The position numbers and the translations under genes are program-made. Under the pieces are notes generated by a model that saw nothing but the letters and a program-made list of their open reading frames with translations, was not told the DNA's origin and ran no database searches. From assembly GCF_001426905.1 (NCBI RefSeq), contig NZ_LMFQ01000012.1:125187-189186 (forward strand): a stretch of DNA of 64,000 nt, given 5' to 3'. Source of the DNA: Caulobacter sp. Root1455. GTDB lineage: Bacteria > Pseudomonadota > Alphaproteobacteria > Caulobacterales > Caulobacteraceae. Positions 4,756-53,961 of the stretch are shown here, piece after piece. Every line of letters starts with the position of its first letter. Position 1 is the first letter of the stretch.

Positions 4756-7605
<2,850 letters not shown>

Positions 7606-7630
7606 GGCCTGAGCGCTTGACGAAATGAAG

Positions 7631-7658
7631 CGCCCGCCCCGGGAAACCGGGGCGGGCG
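7631..7658 (+). terminator. Rho-independent terminator of secA
   Basis: Perfect GC stem CGCCCGCCCCGG / CCGGGGCGGGCG with a GAAA loop, followed by TCTTGCTTTTCC. It starts 26 bases after the secA stop codon. Confidence 0.85.
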
Positions 7659-7680
7659 TCTTGCTTTTCCACCTCTGGCC

Positions 7681-7828
7681 TTCCCTCCCCCTTGCGGGGA
7701 GGGTGGCCCGCGTAGCGGGTCGGGTGGGGAGCGGTGCAGGGTGTTGGACGGGGGCGGTCTGCGGACTCAGCAGCCCCCCACCCGACCCTGGCGCTGCCAG
7801 GGCCACCCTCCCCACGAGGGGGAGGGAA
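7681..7828. repeat. Long inverted repeat between secA and helicase genes
   Basis: The outer arms TTCCCTCCCC and GGGGGAGGGAA enclose a 148-base element. It has an inner hairpin near its left end and a second arm pair with CCCGACCC and GGGTCGGGT. It resembles the elements at 24296-24426 and 39487-39609 in design: short C-rich outer arms, inner cloverleaf-like hairpins and no coding content. Confidence 0.75.
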
Positions 7829-7839
7829 GAACCTAAACG

Positions 7840-7872
7840 AAAAACGCCCACCCCGGATAACCGGAGTGGGCG
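7840..7872 (-). terminator. Rho-independent terminator of the helicase gene
   Basis: Stem CGCCCACTCCGG / CCGGGGTGGGCG (minus-strand reading) followed by TTTTT. It lies about 30 bases past the stop of the minus-strand helicase gene. Confidence 0.85.
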
Positions 7873-7903
7873 CTTTGCTCAGTGCGATTAGGACCGCCGA
7901 ACC

Positions 7904-9343
7904 TTAGTCGATCGGGTTCCAGCGTTCCGACGGGGCGGCCGCGCGCTTGGGGCCGCGGAAGTCGCCGCCGCCCGAGCGGGCTTGGCCCTGGGCTTGCGCC
8001 TGGCCGTTACCCTGGCCGCCGCCGTTGCGGCCGCGGTTCGGCTGGCCGCCGGGCTTGCCGTGAGCCTGGCCATTGCCGCCGCCCTTGGCCGGACGGTTGC
8101 GCTGGCGGCGCAGCTCCGACGGGACGTTGTTGCGCGGGTCGGCGCGGCGCGGATCGACGTACTTCTCCGGCGGCGCCAGCTTGTCGGCCACGGCCGCGGC
8201 GGCCGCCAGGTTCTTGTCGTTGCGACGGTCGAAGGTCGGGATGACCTGACGCGTGGCCTTCTGGATGTCCTTCAGCAGCGGACGCTCGTCATCGGCGCAG
8301 AAGCTGATGGCGACGCCTTCCTTGCCCTTGCGCGCGGTCCGCCCGATCCGGTGGACATAGGACTCCGGCACGTTGGGCAGCTCGTAGTTGAACACGTGGC
8401 TGACGTCGTTGACGTCGATGCCGCGCGCGGCGATGTCGGTGGCGATCAGCGCCTTGACCTGACCGGCCTTGAACGCCGCCAGGGCGCGCTCGCGCTGGCC
8501 CTGGGTCTTGTCGCCGTGGATGGCCGCGGCTTCGATGCCGCTGGCGACCAGATACTTGGCCACCCGGTCGGCGCCGCGCTTGGTGCGGGTGAAGACGATC
8601 GAGCGCTCGACGGCCTTGTCGGCCAGCAGTTCGGCCAGCAGCGGACGCTTGCGCTGGGCTTCGATGTAGATCAGCGACTGGTCGATGCGCTCGACCGTGG
8701 TGGCCGAGGGGGTGATCGCCACCTGGGCCGGGTTCTTCAGCAGCTCGCCGGCCAGCTTGCCGATCTCGCTGGGCATGGTGGCCGAGAAGAACAGGTTCTG
8801 GCGTTCCTTGGGCAGCTGGCTGGCGATCTTGCGGATCGGCACCACGAAGCCCAGGTCGAGCATCTGGTCGGCTTCGTCGAGCACGAAGATCTCGACGCCG
8901 TTCAGGTGGGCGGACTTTTCGCCCAGGTGGTCCATCAGGCGGCCCGGAGTGGCCACGACCACGTCGACGCCGGCCGCCAGGGCCTTCATCTGCGGGCCGT
9001 ACTTCACGCCGCCGAAGATGGTGGCGACGGTCAGGCCCATGTGTTTGCCGTAGTCACGGAAGCTTTCGGCGATCTGAGTCGCCAGTTCGCGGGTCGGGGA
9101 CAGGACCAGGCAGCGGAAGCCGCGGCGCGGGGCCGGCTTCTTGTCCTCGGCCAGGCGGTGCAGGATCGGCAGGGCGAAGGCGGCGGTCTTGCCGGTGCCG
9201 GTCTGGGCGATGCCCAGCAGGTCGCGGCCCGACAGCACGGTCGGGATGGCTTGCGCCTGGATCGGGGTGGGGGTGGTGTAGCCCTTGTCGGTCAGCGCCT
9301 TGAGAAGCGGTTTGGCGAGGCCGAGATCGGTAAATTGAGTCAA
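7904..9343 (-). CDS. rhlE: DEAD-box ATP-dependent RNA helicase, RhlE type
   Basis: RhlE-type helicases unwind short RNA duplexes in ribosome assembly and mRNA decay. All motifs are present in order: Q motif (YTTPTPIQAQAIP), Walker A AQTGTGKT, PTRELA, TPGRL, DEAD, SAT, then the second RecA domain with HGDKTQGQRE, ATDIAARGID and HRIGRTAR. The last 100 residues are Gly/Asn/Gln/Arg-rich, a disordered RNA-binding tail as in other RhlE proteins. I chose the TTG at 9343, which gives MTQFTDLGL, the usual family N-terminus. A GTG at 9391 would add 16 residues, and neither has a strong ribosome site. Confidence 0.93.
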   Translation of the reverse strand: MTQFTDLGLAKPLLKALTDKGYTTPTPIQAQAIPTVLSGRDLLGIAQTGTGKTAAFALPILHRLAEDKKPAPRRGFRCLVLSPTRELATQIAESFRDYGKHMGLTVATIFGGVKYGPQMKALAAGVDVVVATPGRLMDHLGEKSAHLNGVEIFVLDEADQMLDLGFVVPIRKIASQLPKERQNLFFSATMPSEIGKLAGELLKNPAQVAITPSATTVERIDQSLIYIEAQRKRPLLAELLADKAVERSIVFTRTKRGADRVAKYLVASGIEAAAIHGDKTQGQRERALAAFKAGQVKALIATDIAARGIDVNDVSHVFNYELPNVPESYVHRIGRTARKGKEGVAISFCADDERPLLKDIQKATRQVIPTFDRRNDKNLAAAAAVADKLAPPEKYVDPRRADPRNNVPSELRRQRNRPAKGGGNGQAHGKPGGQPNRGRNGGGQGNGQAQAQGQARSGGGDFRGPKRAAAPSERWNPID

Positions 9344-9657
9344 GTCGAATGCTTTCGTGCAGCCACGAGACGGCGCATGCGATCCTCGCACGGCTCGCCT
9401 GGCGGCGGGTCGGTGGGGAGCGCCCCGCGTGACACGGGCGGTCTGATGAGAAGCTTTAGGGCGCTCGACAGGCTGAACCGAAAACGGTCCTTCACGCAGC
9501 TGGAGCGCCGATAACGCCAGATGGCGTACGGGCTATGTCGTTTATTGCAGGTGCGAAGTCAAGGGCAGGCCTTGAATCGCAAGGCCTTGCGACATTTCGC
9601 GCCGTGTTGCATCACGCCGTTCGGCAACCCATGATCGAGTTTCGAGGGGCCAGGAAC
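9344..9657. other. Intergenic region, no gene seen
   Basis: This spacer lies between the divergent helicase and KAP ATPase genes. I see no conserved ORF, RNA gene or strong repeat. It must hold both promoters, but no convincing -35/-10 pair stands out. An in-frame start at 9535 or 9631 could lengthen the KAP protein. Confidence 0.6.
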
Positions 9658-12600
9658 ATGGAACCAAGCCAGACAGCTGCGGACAGCGACGACGGCGAGG
9701 TCGTCCGCGAACTGGCGGGCGCGATCTCCGACCGGCTGAAGCTGGCCAGCAAGTCGGCGACGCTGGACGACGTGGTGGCGTCGGGGTGCCGGCACGTCGT
9801 GCTCGACGAAGCCAAGCGCGAGATCGTCTTCGACATGCGCGCCCTCTATCTGGGCTTCCTGGCCGCGGGCCTGCATCCCCAGAAGGGAAACGTCGGCAAC
9901 ACCGCGCGGTGGTTTCAGGACTGGCTGGCCGAAAAGGTCGGCGAGGCGGCGATCGTCTCGGCCGTGGGCCAGAGCACCGACCTGGCCCTGGCGGGGCGCC
10001 TGCTGAGCTCGGGCTTCATGGCCGTGCCGTCGATCTCGGTCGGCGACCTGCAGGAACTGGCCAGAAGCTACGCCCTGAGCACGGTCACGCGCGGGGCCTT
10101 CGACGCGCGGCACCTGTTCGCCGCGATGATCGAGCGCGGGGCGATCACCGACATGACCCAGCGGGTCTTCAAGGTGTCGCTGACGAACGAGGATATCGAC
10201 GACCTCAAGCGCGATCTCGTCGAGCACATCATGCGTTCGCCGCAGCGAGGCGAGACGCAGGATGCCTGGTTCCAGACGTTGCGCTTGAAGCCGCCGCCTC
10301 CGCCCGCCGCCCAAGCTGCGGGGAAGGCCGCGGGGAAAGCCACAGCCCAAGGCGTGGGGCAAGCCGCCCAGGCGGTTTCGCCCCCGGAGCCCGCGCCGCC
10401 GCCCCCGCCGCCCGACGACGCCGTCTCGCCGTTCAACGGCGACACCCCCACCGCCGACGACAACGACGTGCTGGACACCGAGCGCGACGTCGAGGCCCTG
10501 GCGCAGCTGGTCTGCCTGGACCGCGTCACGCCGCTGGCCGTGGCGATCTTCGGCGACTGGGGCTCGGGCAAGTCGACCTTCATGGCCAAGCTGGAACAGG
10601 CGGTGCGCGAAATGCCGGGGCGCGAGGCCGGCCAGGCCCTGCCCCTGGTCGAGGAGGCCAACGCCGCCCGGTTCGTGCATCCGATCGTCCAGATCCGCTT
10701 CAACGCCTGGCACTTCGCCGACGCCAACCTGTGGGCCAGCCTGACCGCCGAGTTCTTCGACCAACTGCGGGCCGGCGGCTACGACCGCTCGGGGCAGGCG
10801 CGGCACGCCCAGCTGGTCCAGCGGGTCAACCAGCACGTCCACGCCCTGTCCGACACCCTGTCGGCCAACCGCAAGGCCATGGCCAAGAACGGCAAGGCGG
10901 TGCTGGAGGCCCAGCAGGCTCGCGACTCGGCGGCGGAAGGCGCGCGCAAGGCGTCGGGCAAGGCGCTGGGCCAGGCGACCCTGGACGTGCTGTCCCAGGT
11001 CCTGGCCGACCAGAAGGGCCTGATGACGACCCTGGGCCTGACGCGCGAGCGCGCCACGAGCCTCCCAGACGTCGCGACGGATCCGAAGGACGACAAGGCC
11101 CCCGACAAGGCCGGGCAGGGGGCGGAGATCGTCGTCGGCGTGGTCAAGGACCTGGCCTCGACCTTCGGCAAGTTGAAGGCGGTGCGGCGGGTGCTGTTCA
11201 GGACGCCGCTGCGCGCGGCGATCGCGGGCGGCCTGGCGCTGGTGCTGCTCGCCTGCGTGGCGGCGGGCTGGGCGATCCTGTTCGGTCCCTGGAAGGCGGT
11301 GAGCGCCCCGGAGAAATGGACGGCCCTGGCGGGGCTGCTGGCCGCGACGGGCGCCCTGGCGCGGGCCGTCGCCCCGGTGCTCAGGCTGGTCAACGGCGTG
11401 GCCGAGCGCGGCGCGGCCATCGCCGCCGAGGTCGACAAGGCCGACCAGGACGCGGTTGGCCTGCTGCTGACACAGGAAGCCAAGCTGCAGAGCGCCCTGG
11501 CCGAGGCCAAGGCGCTGGAGGAGGCCGAACTTGCCTCGGCCAAGGCCCTGGCCCGCTATGTCGACCCGACGGGCAAGGCCAATCCGCCGAGACTGCTGCG
11601 TTATGTCCTGGAGGACGATCCCGACACCAAGGCCCTGGAGAAGGACATCGGCCTGATCGGTCGCACCCGGCGGCTGTTCCAGGCCGTGGACACCATCGCC
11701 CGCCAGGTCCGCGACGAGCGTGAAGCGGCCCGGAAGGCCCAGGTCGAACGCCCGGGCGAAGACCTGCCCGATCATCCGGACAAGGAGACCCCCGAGCGGA
11801 TCATCATCTACATCGACGACCTGGATCGCTGCCACGAGGACAAGGTCTACGAGGTGCTGCAGGCCATCCACCTGCTGCTGGCCTTCGACCTGTTCGTGGT
11901 GGTGGTGGGCGTCGACGTCAAATGGGTGCAGGCGGCGCTGGCCCAGCAGTTCGAGACGGGCGACGCCCAGGCCGATGCGGCCAGCGAGCAGCAGCGCAAC
12001 GAGCGCGCCATGCACTACCTGGAAAAGATCTTCCAGATCCCGTTCTGGCTGCGGCCGCTCAGCAGCGGCGACGAGGGCACCTTCCGACCCTTCATCGAGA
12101 TGCTGGCCGGCGAGTCCGTCGAGACGGCGCGGGACAAGCAGGCCGCGGCCGAGCGGTCCCGCGAACTGGCTGAGCAACGTCAGGGGGGCAAGATCCCCAC
12201 TGTCGGCGGCGCGGCGGGCGGCCAGGGCGGCGCCGACGCCAAGCCGCAAAAGGGCGCGATGGGCGAGGAAGGCGATCCCTCGGGTATTCTAGGCGGCGAG
12301 GGCGGCGCCAAACTGGTCGAGGCGCGGCGTAAGCTGCAACTGACCGAGGCCGAGATCACCTTCCTGAGCTCGCCCCAGATCGCCGCCCTGGCGGCCACGG
12401 CGCCGCGCGGGGTCAAGCGGTTGGTGAACGTCTACCGGATCGCCCGAGCCCGGCGCGGTCAGGAGGATCGCGACGCGGTGCTCGGCGACAGCGGCGAGAG
12501 GGCGCCGGAATATCCCCTGATCGCCCTGATGGCGGCGGTGGAGACCGGACAAAGCTTCAAGATCGCCGAGTGGTTCTACGACCTGTTGAAGATCAGCCAG

Positions 12601-12819
12601 AACAAGTCCGTCTTGAGCGTGCTCCTTGATTTCATGGCGCCGGATCCCGTGGATCCGAATCCCCGCCCTGACACGGACCTGTCGAGCGAGGTGCTGGGTG
12701 CTCTGTACGCCGCTTGCGGAGCCGCGGCGGCGGGTCGGGGTGATGAAGACCTGACCGCCGACGACCTCCTCAAGGCCGCCCGTCTGGTCCGCCGCTATTC
12801 GTTCAATCGCTACCGCTAA
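9658..12819 (+). CDS. KAP-family membrane P-loop NTPase with an N-terminal Clp-N-like region
   Basis: This is a 1053-residue NTPase. Walker A GDWGSGKST lies at about 297-305 and Walker B IIIYIDDLDRC at about 716-726. The two motifs are separated by two hydrophobic membrane segments (about 520-545 and 552-580) and an Ala/Glu coiled region, which is the insertion typical of KAP ATPases. Residues about 110-190 resemble a Clp N-domain repeat (FDARHLFAAMIERG), a tentative reading. A Pro/Ala/Gly linker at about 205-260 joins the parts. Relatives include PifA-type phage exclusion proteins and animal Kidins220; the local role is unknown. ATG 9658 follows an AGGA. The stop overlaps the next gene tail to tail. 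Confidence 0.8.
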   Translation: MEPSQTAADSDDGEVVRELAGAISDRLKLASKSATLDDVVASGCRHVVLDEAKREIVFDMRALYLGFLAAGLHPQKGNVGNTARWFQDWLAEKVGEAAIVSAVGQSTDLALAGRLLSSGFMAVPSISVGDLQELARSYALSTVTRGAFDARHLFAAMIERGAITDMTQRVFKVSLTNEDIDDLKRDLVEHIMRSPQRGETQDAWFQTLRLKPPPPPAAQAAGKAAGKATAQGVGQAAQAVSPPEPAPPPPPPDDAVSPFNGDTPTADDNDVLDTERDVEALAQLVCLDRVTPLAVAIFGDWGSGKSTFMAKLEQAVREMPGREAGQALPLVEEANAARFVHPIVQIRFNAWHFADANLWASLTAEFFDQLRAGGYDRSGQARHAQLVQRVNQHVHALSDTLSANRKAMAKNGKAVLEAQQARDSAAEGARKASGKALGQATLDVLSQVLADQKGLMTTLGLTRERATSLPDVATDPKDDKAPDKAGQGAEIVVGVVKDLASTFGKLKAVRRVLFRTPLRAAIAGGLALVLLACVAAGWAILFGPWKAVSAPEKWTALAGLLAATGALARAVAPVLRLVNGVAERGAAIAAEVDKADQDAVGLLLTQEAKLQSALAEAKALEEAELASAKALARYVDPTGKANPPRLLRYVLEDDPDTKALEKDIGLIGRTRRLFQAVDTIARQVRDEREAARKAQVERPGEDLPDHPDKETPERIIIYIDDLDRCHEDKVYEVLQAIHLLLAFDLFVVVVGVDVKWVQAALAQQFETGDAQADAASEQQRNERAMHYLEKIFQIPFWLRPLSSGDEGTFRPFIEMLAGESVETARDKQAAAERSRELAEQRQGGKIPTVGGAAGGQGGADAKPQKGAMGEEGDPSGILGGEGGAKLVEARRKLQLTEAEITFLSSPQIAALAATAPRGVKRLVNVYRIARARRGQEDRDAVLGDSGERAPEYPLIALMAAVETGQSFKIAEWFYDLLKISQNKSVLSVLLDFMAPDPVDPNPRPDTDLSSEVLGALYAACGAAAAGRGDEDLTADDLLKAARLVRRYSFNRYR

Positions 12820-13166
12820 ACGGGCGGCGGCGCCTCGAAGAACTTCTCCACCTGGGCTGCCCAGGCATAGGTGCTGCTGCCCAACTGGTCGCGGTCGTAG
12901 GCCGGGGCTTCCTTGAAGCGGTCCTTGGTCAGGTCGGCGACATAGACCTCGTCCTTGTCGTCCCAGGTCAGCAGACGCCAGGGCAGGGGGCGGAACTTGC
13001 CGCCGGCCGCGAACAGGCCCGCGGGCTCGACGGCCACGTAGCGGGCGATGCCGGCGTCGCGGTCGATGAACACCTCGCGGATCGAACCCAGCTTGTGGCC
13101 GCCGGCGTCGTTGATCTTCACGCCGATCAGGGTGGCGCTCTTCACCAGGCGGTCTTCGACGCTCAT
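12816..13166 (-). CDS. PRC-barrel domain protein
   Basis: A 116-residue protein with a PRC-barrel pattern: LIGVKINDAGGHKLGSIREV, then DRDAGIARYVAVEP, and LPWRLLTW. PRC barrels are small beta-barrels found in photosynthetic reaction centre H subunits, RimM and stand-alone stress proteins; stand-alone forms have no settled function. The ATG at 13166 follows a strong GAGGAG. The 3' end overlaps the KAP ATPase gene by four bases in convergent orientation, leaving no room for a separate terminator. Confidence 0.8.
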   Translation of the reverse strand: MSVEDRLVKSATLIGVKINDAGGHKLGSIREVFIDRDAGIARYVAVEPAGLFAAGGKFRPLPWRLLTWDDKDEVYVADLTKDRFKEAPAYDRDQLGSSTYAWAAQVEKFFEAPPPV

Positions 13167-13274
13167 CAGGCTCTCCTCGGGCTTGCCGCAAACAAACGCC
13201 GCCGCGTGGCGGATCGATCCACGATGGACTACGACCCTTGGACGTTTGCGACGCGCGGCGGGGCGGTCTATGCG

Positions 13275-13287
13275 TGTTACCGCTACC
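13275..13287. promoter_or_regulatory. Candidate xylose-type (XylR/LacI) operator
   Basis: TGTTACCGCTACC is an imperfect palindrome centred on the CG step. It resembles the operator core I recall for Caulobacter xylose-induced promoters (TGTTAGCGCTACC). It lies 49 bases before the transporter of the sugar module. Confidence 0.45.
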
Positions 13288-13335
13288 GTCATCGGCCCCC
13301 CAACCGAGCCACAAAGACGGAGCGGGGAGAGACGC

Positions 13336-14619
13336 ATGAACGGCAAGATCCGGGCCCTGCGCTGGTGGATCATCGGCCTGGTGATGTTGGGCGCGATTCT
13401 CAACTACCTGACCCGCAGCACCCTGGGCGTCGCGGCCCCGACCGTGCTGGCCGACCTGCATATCGGCCCCAAGGAATATTCCTGGATCACCGGCGCCTTC
13501 CAGCTGGGAGTCATGTTGCAGCCCCTATGCGGCTACGTGCTGGACTCGATCGGGCTGAAGCTGGGCTTCGCCCTGTTCGCCACCGCCTGGTCGCTGATCA
13601 CCATGGCCCACGGGTTTGCTGGAAACTGGCAGGTCTTGCTGGGGCTGCGCGGGGCCTTGGGCGCGGCCGAGGGCTGCGCCCAGCCGGCCGGGATGAAGGC
13701 GGTGTCGACCTGGTTCCCCGCCAAGGAGCGCGGCTTCGCCGGCGGGTTCTTCAACATCGGCGCCTCCATGGGGGCCGTCCTCGCGCCGCCGCTGGTGGCC
13801 TGGTCGATCCTGCTCTGGAACTGGCGGGCTGCCTTCATGGTGGCCGGCGGCTTGGGTTTGGTGTGGGTGGTGCTCTGGCTGTTCGCCTACCAGTCGCCCG
13901 ACAAGCACAAGGCCTTGTCCGACAGCGAGCGCGACCTGATCGTCTCGGGCCAGGAGACCCACCTGGAGGACGCCGGTGCGCGGCCCTCGATGCTCAGCCT
14001 GCTGGGGCGGCGAAACTTCTGGGGCATCGCCCTGCCCAGGTTCCTGGCCGATCCCACCTGGGGCACGCTGTCGTTCTGGGTGCCGCTGTACCTGACCACG
14101 GTCCGCCATTTCGATCTGAAGCAGATCGCCATGTTCGCCTGGCTGCCGTTCGTGGCCGCCGACATCGGCTGCCTGTTCGGCCCGGCCGTGGTGCTGTTCC
14201 TGCAGAAGCGCGGCGTCAGCCTGATCGACGCCCGTCGCTGGGCCTTCACGCTGGGGGCGGTGCTGATGACCGGCATGATGTTCGTCGGCCGGGTCGAGAG
14301 CCCCTACCTGGCCATCGCCCTGCTGTGCGTGGGCGGCTTCGCGCACCAGACTCTGTCGGTGACGGTGATCACCATGTCGTCGGACCTTTTCCGTCGCAAC
14401 GAGGTGGCGACCGTGGCCGGGATGGGCGGGTTCTTCGGCAATCTCGGGGTGCTGATCTTCTCGCTGCTGATCGGCGGATTTGTCGCCACGGTCGGCTACG
14501 ATCCGTTCTTCGTCGCCCTGGGCGTGCTGGACCTGGCCGGGGCCGTCCTGCTGTGGACCCTGGTCCGCGACCCCGCTATTCCGCCGGCCGCCAAGCCCGT
14601 CACCGTTCCCGCCCTGTAG
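13336..14619 (+). CDS. MFS sugar transporter, ExuT (hexuronate/anion) type
   Basis: A 427-residue inner-membrane carrier with about 12 hydrophobic helices. The family signatures are visible: NYLTRSTLGVAAP in helix 1, the long GLRGALGAAEGCAQPAGMK in helix 4, and FPAKERGFAGGFFNIGASMG in helix 5, as in ExuT-like anion:cation symporters. It probably imports uronates or other products of plant cell-wall breakdown. The ATG at 13336 follows GGGGAGAGA. It is seven bases before the GH43 xylosidase gene, so the two form an operon, and a xylose-type operator lies upstream. Confidence 0.88.
   Translation: MNGKIRALRWWIIGLVMLGAILNYLTRSTLGVAAPTVLADLHIGPKEYSWITGAFQLGVMLQPLCGYVLDSIGLKLGFALFATAWSLITMAHGFAGNWQVLLGLRGALGAAEGCAQPAGMKAVSTWFPAKERGFAGGFFNIGASMGAVLAPPLVAWSILLWNWRAAFMVAGGLGLVWVVLWLFAYQSPDKHKALSDSERDLIVSGQETHLEDAGARPSMLSLLGRRNFWGIALPRFLADPTWGTLSFWVPLYLTTVRHFDLKQIAMFAWLPFVAADIGCLFGPAVVLFLQKRGVSLIDARRWAFTLGAVLMTGMMFVGRVESPYLAIALLCVGGFAHQTLSVTVITMSSDLFRRNEVATVAGMGGFFGNLGVLIFSLLIGGFVATVGYDPFFVALGVLDLAGAVLLWTLVRDPAIPPAAKPVTVPAL

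Positions 14620-51366: not shown

Positions 51367-53961
<2,595 letters not shown>

Follow-up and report, generated by a model that had tools for sequence, protein, structure and literature searches.

A membrane KAP-type NTPase with a predicted Clp-N-fold head, inserted as a single gene in Caulobacter sp. Root1455: a candidate mobile conflict factor

Through in silico analysis of a 64,000-nucleotide stretch of the genome of Caulobacter sp. Root1455 (contig NZ_LMFQ01000012.1, positions 125,187 to 189,186; hereafter the window), a single gene at 9658-12819 on the + strand has been identified, encoding a KAP-type nucleoside triphosphatase (NTPase) with a hydrophobic insert and a predicted Clp-fold N-terminal domain, here called the head. 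The gene is rare, it is inserted in the chromosome, and its relatives include members in a phage contig and on plasmids. From these features we infer, with modest confidence, a mobile single-gene conflict factor, acting most likely in anti-phage defence or phage-phage exclusion.

Gene, NTPase core and membrane insert

The longest open reading frame (ORF) of the + strand extends from 9535 to 12819 and is open for 1094 codons. The preferred start is the ATG at 9658, giving a protein of 1053 amino acids (aa) that ends at 12819 (+). This start, given already in a preliminary description of the window, is preferred because a Shine-Dalgarno-like stretch containing GAGG/AGGA lies upstream. It is also favoured by the DNA as far as about 9570, which is kept in genus members without the gene at this site and therefore belongs to the neighbour. 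The features of the protein are as follows (residues of the 1053-aa protein, here and below unless the ORF is named):

9658..12819, +, KAP NTPase with Clp-fold N-terminal domain, 1053 aa (Pfam KAP_NTPase; three full-length relatives)
9739..10248, +, Clp-N-fold domain, residues 28-197 (a prediction: AlphaFold2 model, VIA match)
10288..10443, +, Pro/Ala-rich linker, residues 211-262 (sequence)
10552..10575, +, Walker A GDWGSGKS, residues 299-306 (sequence; alignment of nine KAP proteins)
10786..11577, +, insert between Walker A and B, residues 377-640 (low-confidence model, hydropathy)
11212..11277, +, probable membrane helix 1, residues 519-540 (hydropathy maximum 2.32; helix in the low-confidence model)
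11317..11391, +, probable membrane helix 2, residues 554-578 (hydropathy maximum 1.71)
11800..11832, +, Walker B IIIYIDDLDRC, residues 715-725 (sequence; alignment of nine KAP proteins)
12793..12813, +, C-terminal signature RYSFNRY, residues 1046-1052 (4/4 full-length proteins)

The Pfam family KAP_NTPase (PF07693) matches residues 320-844 of the 1094-aa ORF with 91.6 bits (cut-off 20) and an expectation (E) value of 7.1e-26, a score which indicates that the ORF is not a chance one; this is the sole KAP_NTPase match above cut-off in the source genome. Membrane segments between Walker A and B are a trait of the KAP class. The Walker A pattern FGxWGxGKS and the Walker B pattern DDxDR are both invariant in nine aligned KAP proteins, that of the window included, and hydropathy reveals two hydrophobic segments, 512-549 and 554-578, in the insert ahead of Walker B. 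The protein thus joins a curated score to both motifs, with hydrophobic segments between them. Membrane helices in the insert are probable on the grounds of hydropathy, and long helices are predicted at residues 377-640 in the low-confidence full-length model. Two other stretches (280-299 and 729-763) that also exceed the hydropathy threshold lie next to the Walker motifs and are taken for core strands.

Three further full-length relatives share 38-40% identity with the protein. The mean identity among the four is 34% in the head, 34% in the insert, and 56 and 64% in the NTPase blocks; in the linker 2 of 52 positions are invariant, and the signature RYSFNRY is invariant in all four. The KAP-type NTPase, the Pro/Ala linker (from residue 211) and, as probable helices, the membrane pair before Walker B, all proposed in the preliminary description, have been located, and the C-terminus is conserved.

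The Clp-like head

From structure prediction the head is concluded to have a Clp-N fold, very distant in sequence. The AlphaFold2 model of residues 28-197 (five-sequence input) reaches a predicted local distance difference test score (pLDDT) of 85.0 and a predicted template modelling score (pTM) of 0.83. Foldseek against the PDB returned 193 matches at E up to 10, the best with an E-value of 0.017 and template modelling (TM) scores of 0.45 over the query and 0.58 over the target. Within the best 50 of these 193, rows 1 to 26 bear titles of Clp/Hsp100 N-domains, ClpT or Clp complexes, with the exception of four (rows 3, 5, 7 and 15) titled malarial secretion system, which we take to be the N-domain of Plasmodium Hsp101; row 27 is haemoglobin.

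VIA-align, which re-examines Foldseek's own list, matched a ClpC N-domain with Z 10.5 and a root-mean-square deviation of 3.2 over 131 residues. The best 50 of its 121 chains with Z of 2 or more are Clp-type by title or, for the malarial entries, the SMAX1 complexes and one heat-shock protease, presumably so. VIA itself cautions that helical models can attain Z values near 13 or 14 with no clear kinship; the uniformity of the list and the coverage, which spans residues 28-197 and both repeats, therefore outweigh Z. The two-repeat helical fold of Clp N-domains is found in the predicted model, with weak E-values and TM-scores.

A link has also been obtained through sister KAP proteins. The head profile matches six sister segments (the N-termini of four sister KAP proteins and the second segments of two plasmid members) with a profile probability of 90, and these segments match the ClpA/B N-domains with a probability of 69; neither score is reached by any of 100 shuffles. 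Pooled in one alignment, heads and sister N-termini give a probability of 53 against ClpA/ClpB, above 100/100 shuffles. Taken singly, two sister segments match the head with probabilities of 67 and 39 and four with 1 or less. When single sister rows are left out the link to ClpA/B falls from 69 to 10-56, and the sister set fails against ClpA alone (2/100 shuffles reach the score); the transitive link is consequently regarded as moderate. The preliminary description had proposed a Clp-N-like N-terminus from one motif, FDARHLFAAMIERG (residues 148-161 of the 1053-aa protein). The proposal is carried by the fold prediction and the transitive link, and not by PF02861 or the direct profile comparison.

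ClpC binds phospho-arginine through E32 and E106 (PMC12583610). In the favoured register these positions correspond to Arg 61 and Arg 151, and a one-residue shift leads to Ala 62 and His 152; this tentative register is based on the ClpC sequence and an alignment of the sister protein L014 with ClpB. Direct head-ClpB alignments put His 152 at the pocket position. All six heads of alignment A3 have Arg 151 and His 152, and the phage head retains both; of the seven distinct heads, five have Arg and two have Lys at position 61. Judged from these alignments, the acidic ClpC pocket residues appear to be replaced by basic ones in the head, which is treated as a lead; an acidic residue at 149, two before Arg 151, in 7/7 heads counts against a simple charge reversal.

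Chromosomal site, spread and neighbours

The gene forms an insertion of its own, with a DEAD-box helicase gene on one side and a PRC-barrel gene on the other:

7904..9391, -, DEAD-box helicase, flank (Pfam DEAD 172.5 bits)
9585..12830, no strand, one-gene insertion, approximate extent (homology breakpoints in nine syntenic genus members)
12816..13403, -, PRC-barrel protein, flank (Pfam PRC 29.9 bits, cut-off 21.2)

Homology to nine syntenic genus members ends at 9566-9591 and restarts at 12821-12833 (a tenth, G022, was left out of this comparison), and the insert is just big enough for the KAP gene alone. Both neighbours lie on the other strand, the upstream gene running the opposite way and the downstream gene tail to tail, so the gene stands alone, as first described. 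Of 41 genus genomes, 18 have a PRC match; eleven loci taken from these were compared, and none gave a KAP protein match at E 1e-8. Two of these sites are empty, the matches to the flanking genes lying 301 (G023) and 367 (G018) bases apart; eight others with both flanks hold 1.1 to 8.4 kb of other DNA, and the eleventh, G003, is without a helicase match. Because other genus members hold other DNA there, the site seems to take up DNA repeatedly. The ORFs of eight members, judged by eye, look mixed, for which reason no defence hotspot is called. At the same site in another genus member (L083:9006-14996) there is a 1996-aa ORF, autotransporter-like by eye.

The helicase start and some 180 bases upstream of it (window 9301-9570) keep 82-94% identity across nine genus members regardless of the DNA that comes next, with no Rfam match; this conserved stretch is possibly the promoter and 5' leader of the helicase gene. 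Neither a consensus promoter nor a terminator was found in 9390-9800, and no Rfam match at gathering scores in 7600-13500.

KAP-level matches were detected in 3 of 101 relatives and in 6 of 385 genomes of the class, the own genome included in both. The head profile finds only the own genome among 398 of the phylum, and the full-length profile, applied to the order of G439, finds G439 itself (1/17). A single-protein search of genome contigs gave no match, and neither did the head alignment against viral contigs, though the full alignment finds a phage relative (L068) there. Since pattern searches miss divergent members, the counts of carriers are lower bounds. Against its own reading the preliminary description had set a core gene of every relative without Clp-N similarity; what was found is a rare gene whose site lacks it in the genus members compared, and relatives lying in one case in a phage contig and in three cases on plasmids near defence-type genes, which is not a core-gene pattern.

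The head has been found in seven loci: the window, L024, L025 (= L013, a Dongia metagenome-assembled genome), the phage contig L068, and the plasmids L019, L020 and L021 (= L026, broken). In L068 the neighbours are portal, head protease, major head, major tail and head-tail adaptor genes. The KAP gene of L020 overlaps a DUF2971 gene by 4 bases, with VapBC and an integrase nearby and a HATPase protein upstream that has a REase_II match of 29 bits. In L021 the gene lies beside a partial AbiEii gene (54 bits, cut-off 22.5), a DUF6088 gene with a sub-threshold AbiEi match and a HEPN/nucleotidyltransferase gene. As raw counts, three of the seven carriers are near defence-type genes, one is in a phage and three are by ordinary genes; the scan covered two neighbours of L024, one of which gave no family, and two of L025.

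On the Rhizobium sp. CC1099 plasmid (L019:7932-13680) the KAP gene, whose product has the head and a second Clp-like segment, is followed by genes for a SIR2 protein and a nucleoside 2-deoxyribosyltransferase with 4-base overlaps; this operon looks like a three-gene defence system. The record L024, titled Mycobacterium sp. KBS0706, contains the nearest relative of the window gene, which is of alphaproteobacterial type; this relative lies beside MdoG, and its species label may be wrong.

In a tree of the NTPase blocks, the window protein, L024, L025 and L068 are united with support 97/98, and the plasmid pair L019/L020 is placed elsewhere. It follows that the head either moved between KAP lineages or was ancestral and then replaced, the latter being allowed because the sister N-termini of L014 and L015 look Clp-like. 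Sister KAP proteins bear TIR or WD40 in place of the head. On a Sinorhizobium plasmid (L022:6621-10115) a TIR-KAP fusion (TIR_2 44 bits, cut-off 28) has on one side a DUF4062 gene that shows some similarity to ThsA and on the other macro, DarT and SIR2-HerA genes; a Pseudonocardia plasmid (L023:6081-10070) encodes a WD40-KAP fusion with eleven WD40 stretches; and the KAP protein of L015:8504-12592 has an EVE-like N-terminal region below cut-off (18.2 vs 23), followed by a possibly Clp-N-like segment.

Competing explanations and known systems

The conflict reading draws on the KAP core, the predicted fold of the head, the insertion with its empty sites, the rarity, the phage and plasmid carriers, the TIR and WD40 sister proteins, and the greater variation of head and insert compared with the NTPase blocks. 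If the protein is a conflict factor, the head, on its flexible Pro/Ala linker, would bind an infection-linked ligand such as a peptide, a modified protein or an adaptor; this is proposed because Clp N-domains bind substrates and adaptors. Binding would release the KAP NTPase for ATP-dependent assembly at the inner membrane. In the one-gene forms the membrane part itself may stop the infected cell or block the phage, and in the plasmid forms the operonic partner (the SIR2 or DUF2971 protein) may be the effector. The part in abortive infection or membrane surveillance that the preliminary description suggested is likewise putative. A more specific version, which we hold to be doubtful, makes the Clp-N fold an infection sensor: its two ligand pockets, turned basic (Arg/Lys 61, Arg 151, His 152), would recognise a signal from phage or host that is anionic or phosphorylated, and would thereby control assembly of the membrane KAP NTPase, the KAP protein being a platform like the nucleotide-binding leucine-rich-repeat (NLR) proteins, with exchangeable heads (Clp-N, TIR, WD40, EVE-like).

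Several observations weigh against a Clp-headed defence factor: (i) no defence model fits the protein well, the best in PADLOC being QatA at 55 bits; (ii) the neighbours of the window gene are ordinary (five scanned: SecA, DEAD helicase, PRC-barrel, MFS, GH43), and L024 and L025 likewise sit by ordinary genes (MdoG, periplasmic binding protein); (iii) no relative was found in named phage records at E 1e-5 or 1e-3; (iv) Pfam Clp_N (PF02861) gives no match to the window protein at E up to 10, and none in 14 relatives (eight proteins at E up to 1, six at E up to 0.01; for L023 among the best 25 of 53 families), while as a positive control it scores the ClpB of the same window (51367-53961) at 79 bits; (v) the six-head profile against 15 ClpA/ClpB N-domains stays within column shuffles, 8/100 of which reach its score, as do 17/100 for an enlarged head set, and an earlier 30-shuffle run was likewise without signal; (vi) Foldseek gives no E-value under 0.001, and the TM-scores of the Clp rows among the first 26 are 0.30-0.45 over the query; (vii) the full-length predicted model, with pLDDT 50, is too poor for use; (viii) PMC8594841 questions whether immunity is what PifA, the KAP protein of plasmid F, evolved for, and against some phages QatA is not required (PMC13279940).

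Among the rival explanations, an unlikely one is that the gene served an element, by superinfection exclusion or by stabilising it, and was left on the chromosome, with the benefit going to the phage or plasmid and not to the cell. One of the four close members does come from a phage contig, and another three carriers of the head are on plasmids, but the KAP gene fills the window insert, so there is no remnant of a carrier element to point to. The proposal also overlaps with the defence reading, exclusion being defence against rivals.

We consider improbable a role in membrane proteostasis or stress, where the Clp-type head would recruit Clp substrates or adaptors to the inner membrane for handling by the KAP NTPase, with no phage role. 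Such binding is a function of Clp N-domains (for ClpC, PMC12583610), the head has that predicted fold, and three of seven carriers are found among ordinary chromosomal genes. However, the rarity, the empty sites, the phage carrier, the plasmid carriers near defence-type genes and the replacement of the head by TIR or WD40 in sister proteins are unlike a housekeeping part.

That the head is an unrelated helical domain, its Clp-like look being a common helical arrangement, is very unlikely: points (iv) and (v), Foldseek E-values of 0.017 and above, TM-scores under 0.5 over the query and VIA's caution speak for it, but the first 26 Foldseek and best 50 VIA rows are Clp-type by title or, for the entries named above, presumably so, the match spans both repeats, and the sister N-termini link the two families.

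Should the reading as a conflict factor hold, it would mean that a membrane immune ATPase has taken over, as its recognition head, the domain with which Clp machines bind substrates, and that KAP NTPases, like STAND proteins, are a platform on which heads can be exchanged. The window gene encodes a protein on which it can be tested, with a single gene, how infection is detected by KAP ATPases such as PifA and how these act at the membrane.

The protein resembles PifA, a single-gene phage exclusion factor, in its KAP core with Walker A and B and probable membrane segments between them; we know of no Clp-fold head in PifA. The PADLOC model of PifA matches the 1094-aa ORF weakly, in two stretches (E 1.4e-7, 28.5 bits), the best of which, residues 325-360 at Walker A, covers 36 of 720 model positions. 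According to PMC8594841, PifA had previously been proposed to sense T7 proteins and to cause cell death by depolarising the membrane. QatA of qatABCD is likewise a KAP NTPase, and is both the best PADLOC match and the only NCBIfam match. The protein is not identified as QatA (NF041923), as it scores 73.4 bits against an NCBIfam cut-off of 600 and no qatB, qatC or qatD is present among the five scanned neighbours. QatA is a DNA-binding protein that assembles into a heptamer or octamer (PMC13279940).

With the N-domains of Clp/Hsp100 proteins (ClpC, ClpA, ClpB, ClpV, ClpT) the head shares the predicted two-repeat fold of residues 28-197. In contrast to these proteins, the window protein is below PF02861 detection, no AAA+ unfoldase modules are found in it by Pfam, and the positions of ClpC E32/E106 are apparently basic. 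No literature pairing Clp-N with a KAP NTPase, or a Clp-N domain with anti-phage activity, was found in a search outside which most subscription journals lie; PMC7159879 was considered as a paper on KAP and ClpN, and its two occurrences of 'kap' are author names in the reference list. It describes ternary conflict systems in which ClpN repeats are attached to vWA conflict proteins, whereas in the window the Clp-fold head is carried by a membrane KAP NTPase. In conflict systems, KAP can replace STAND NTPases (PMC8195603).

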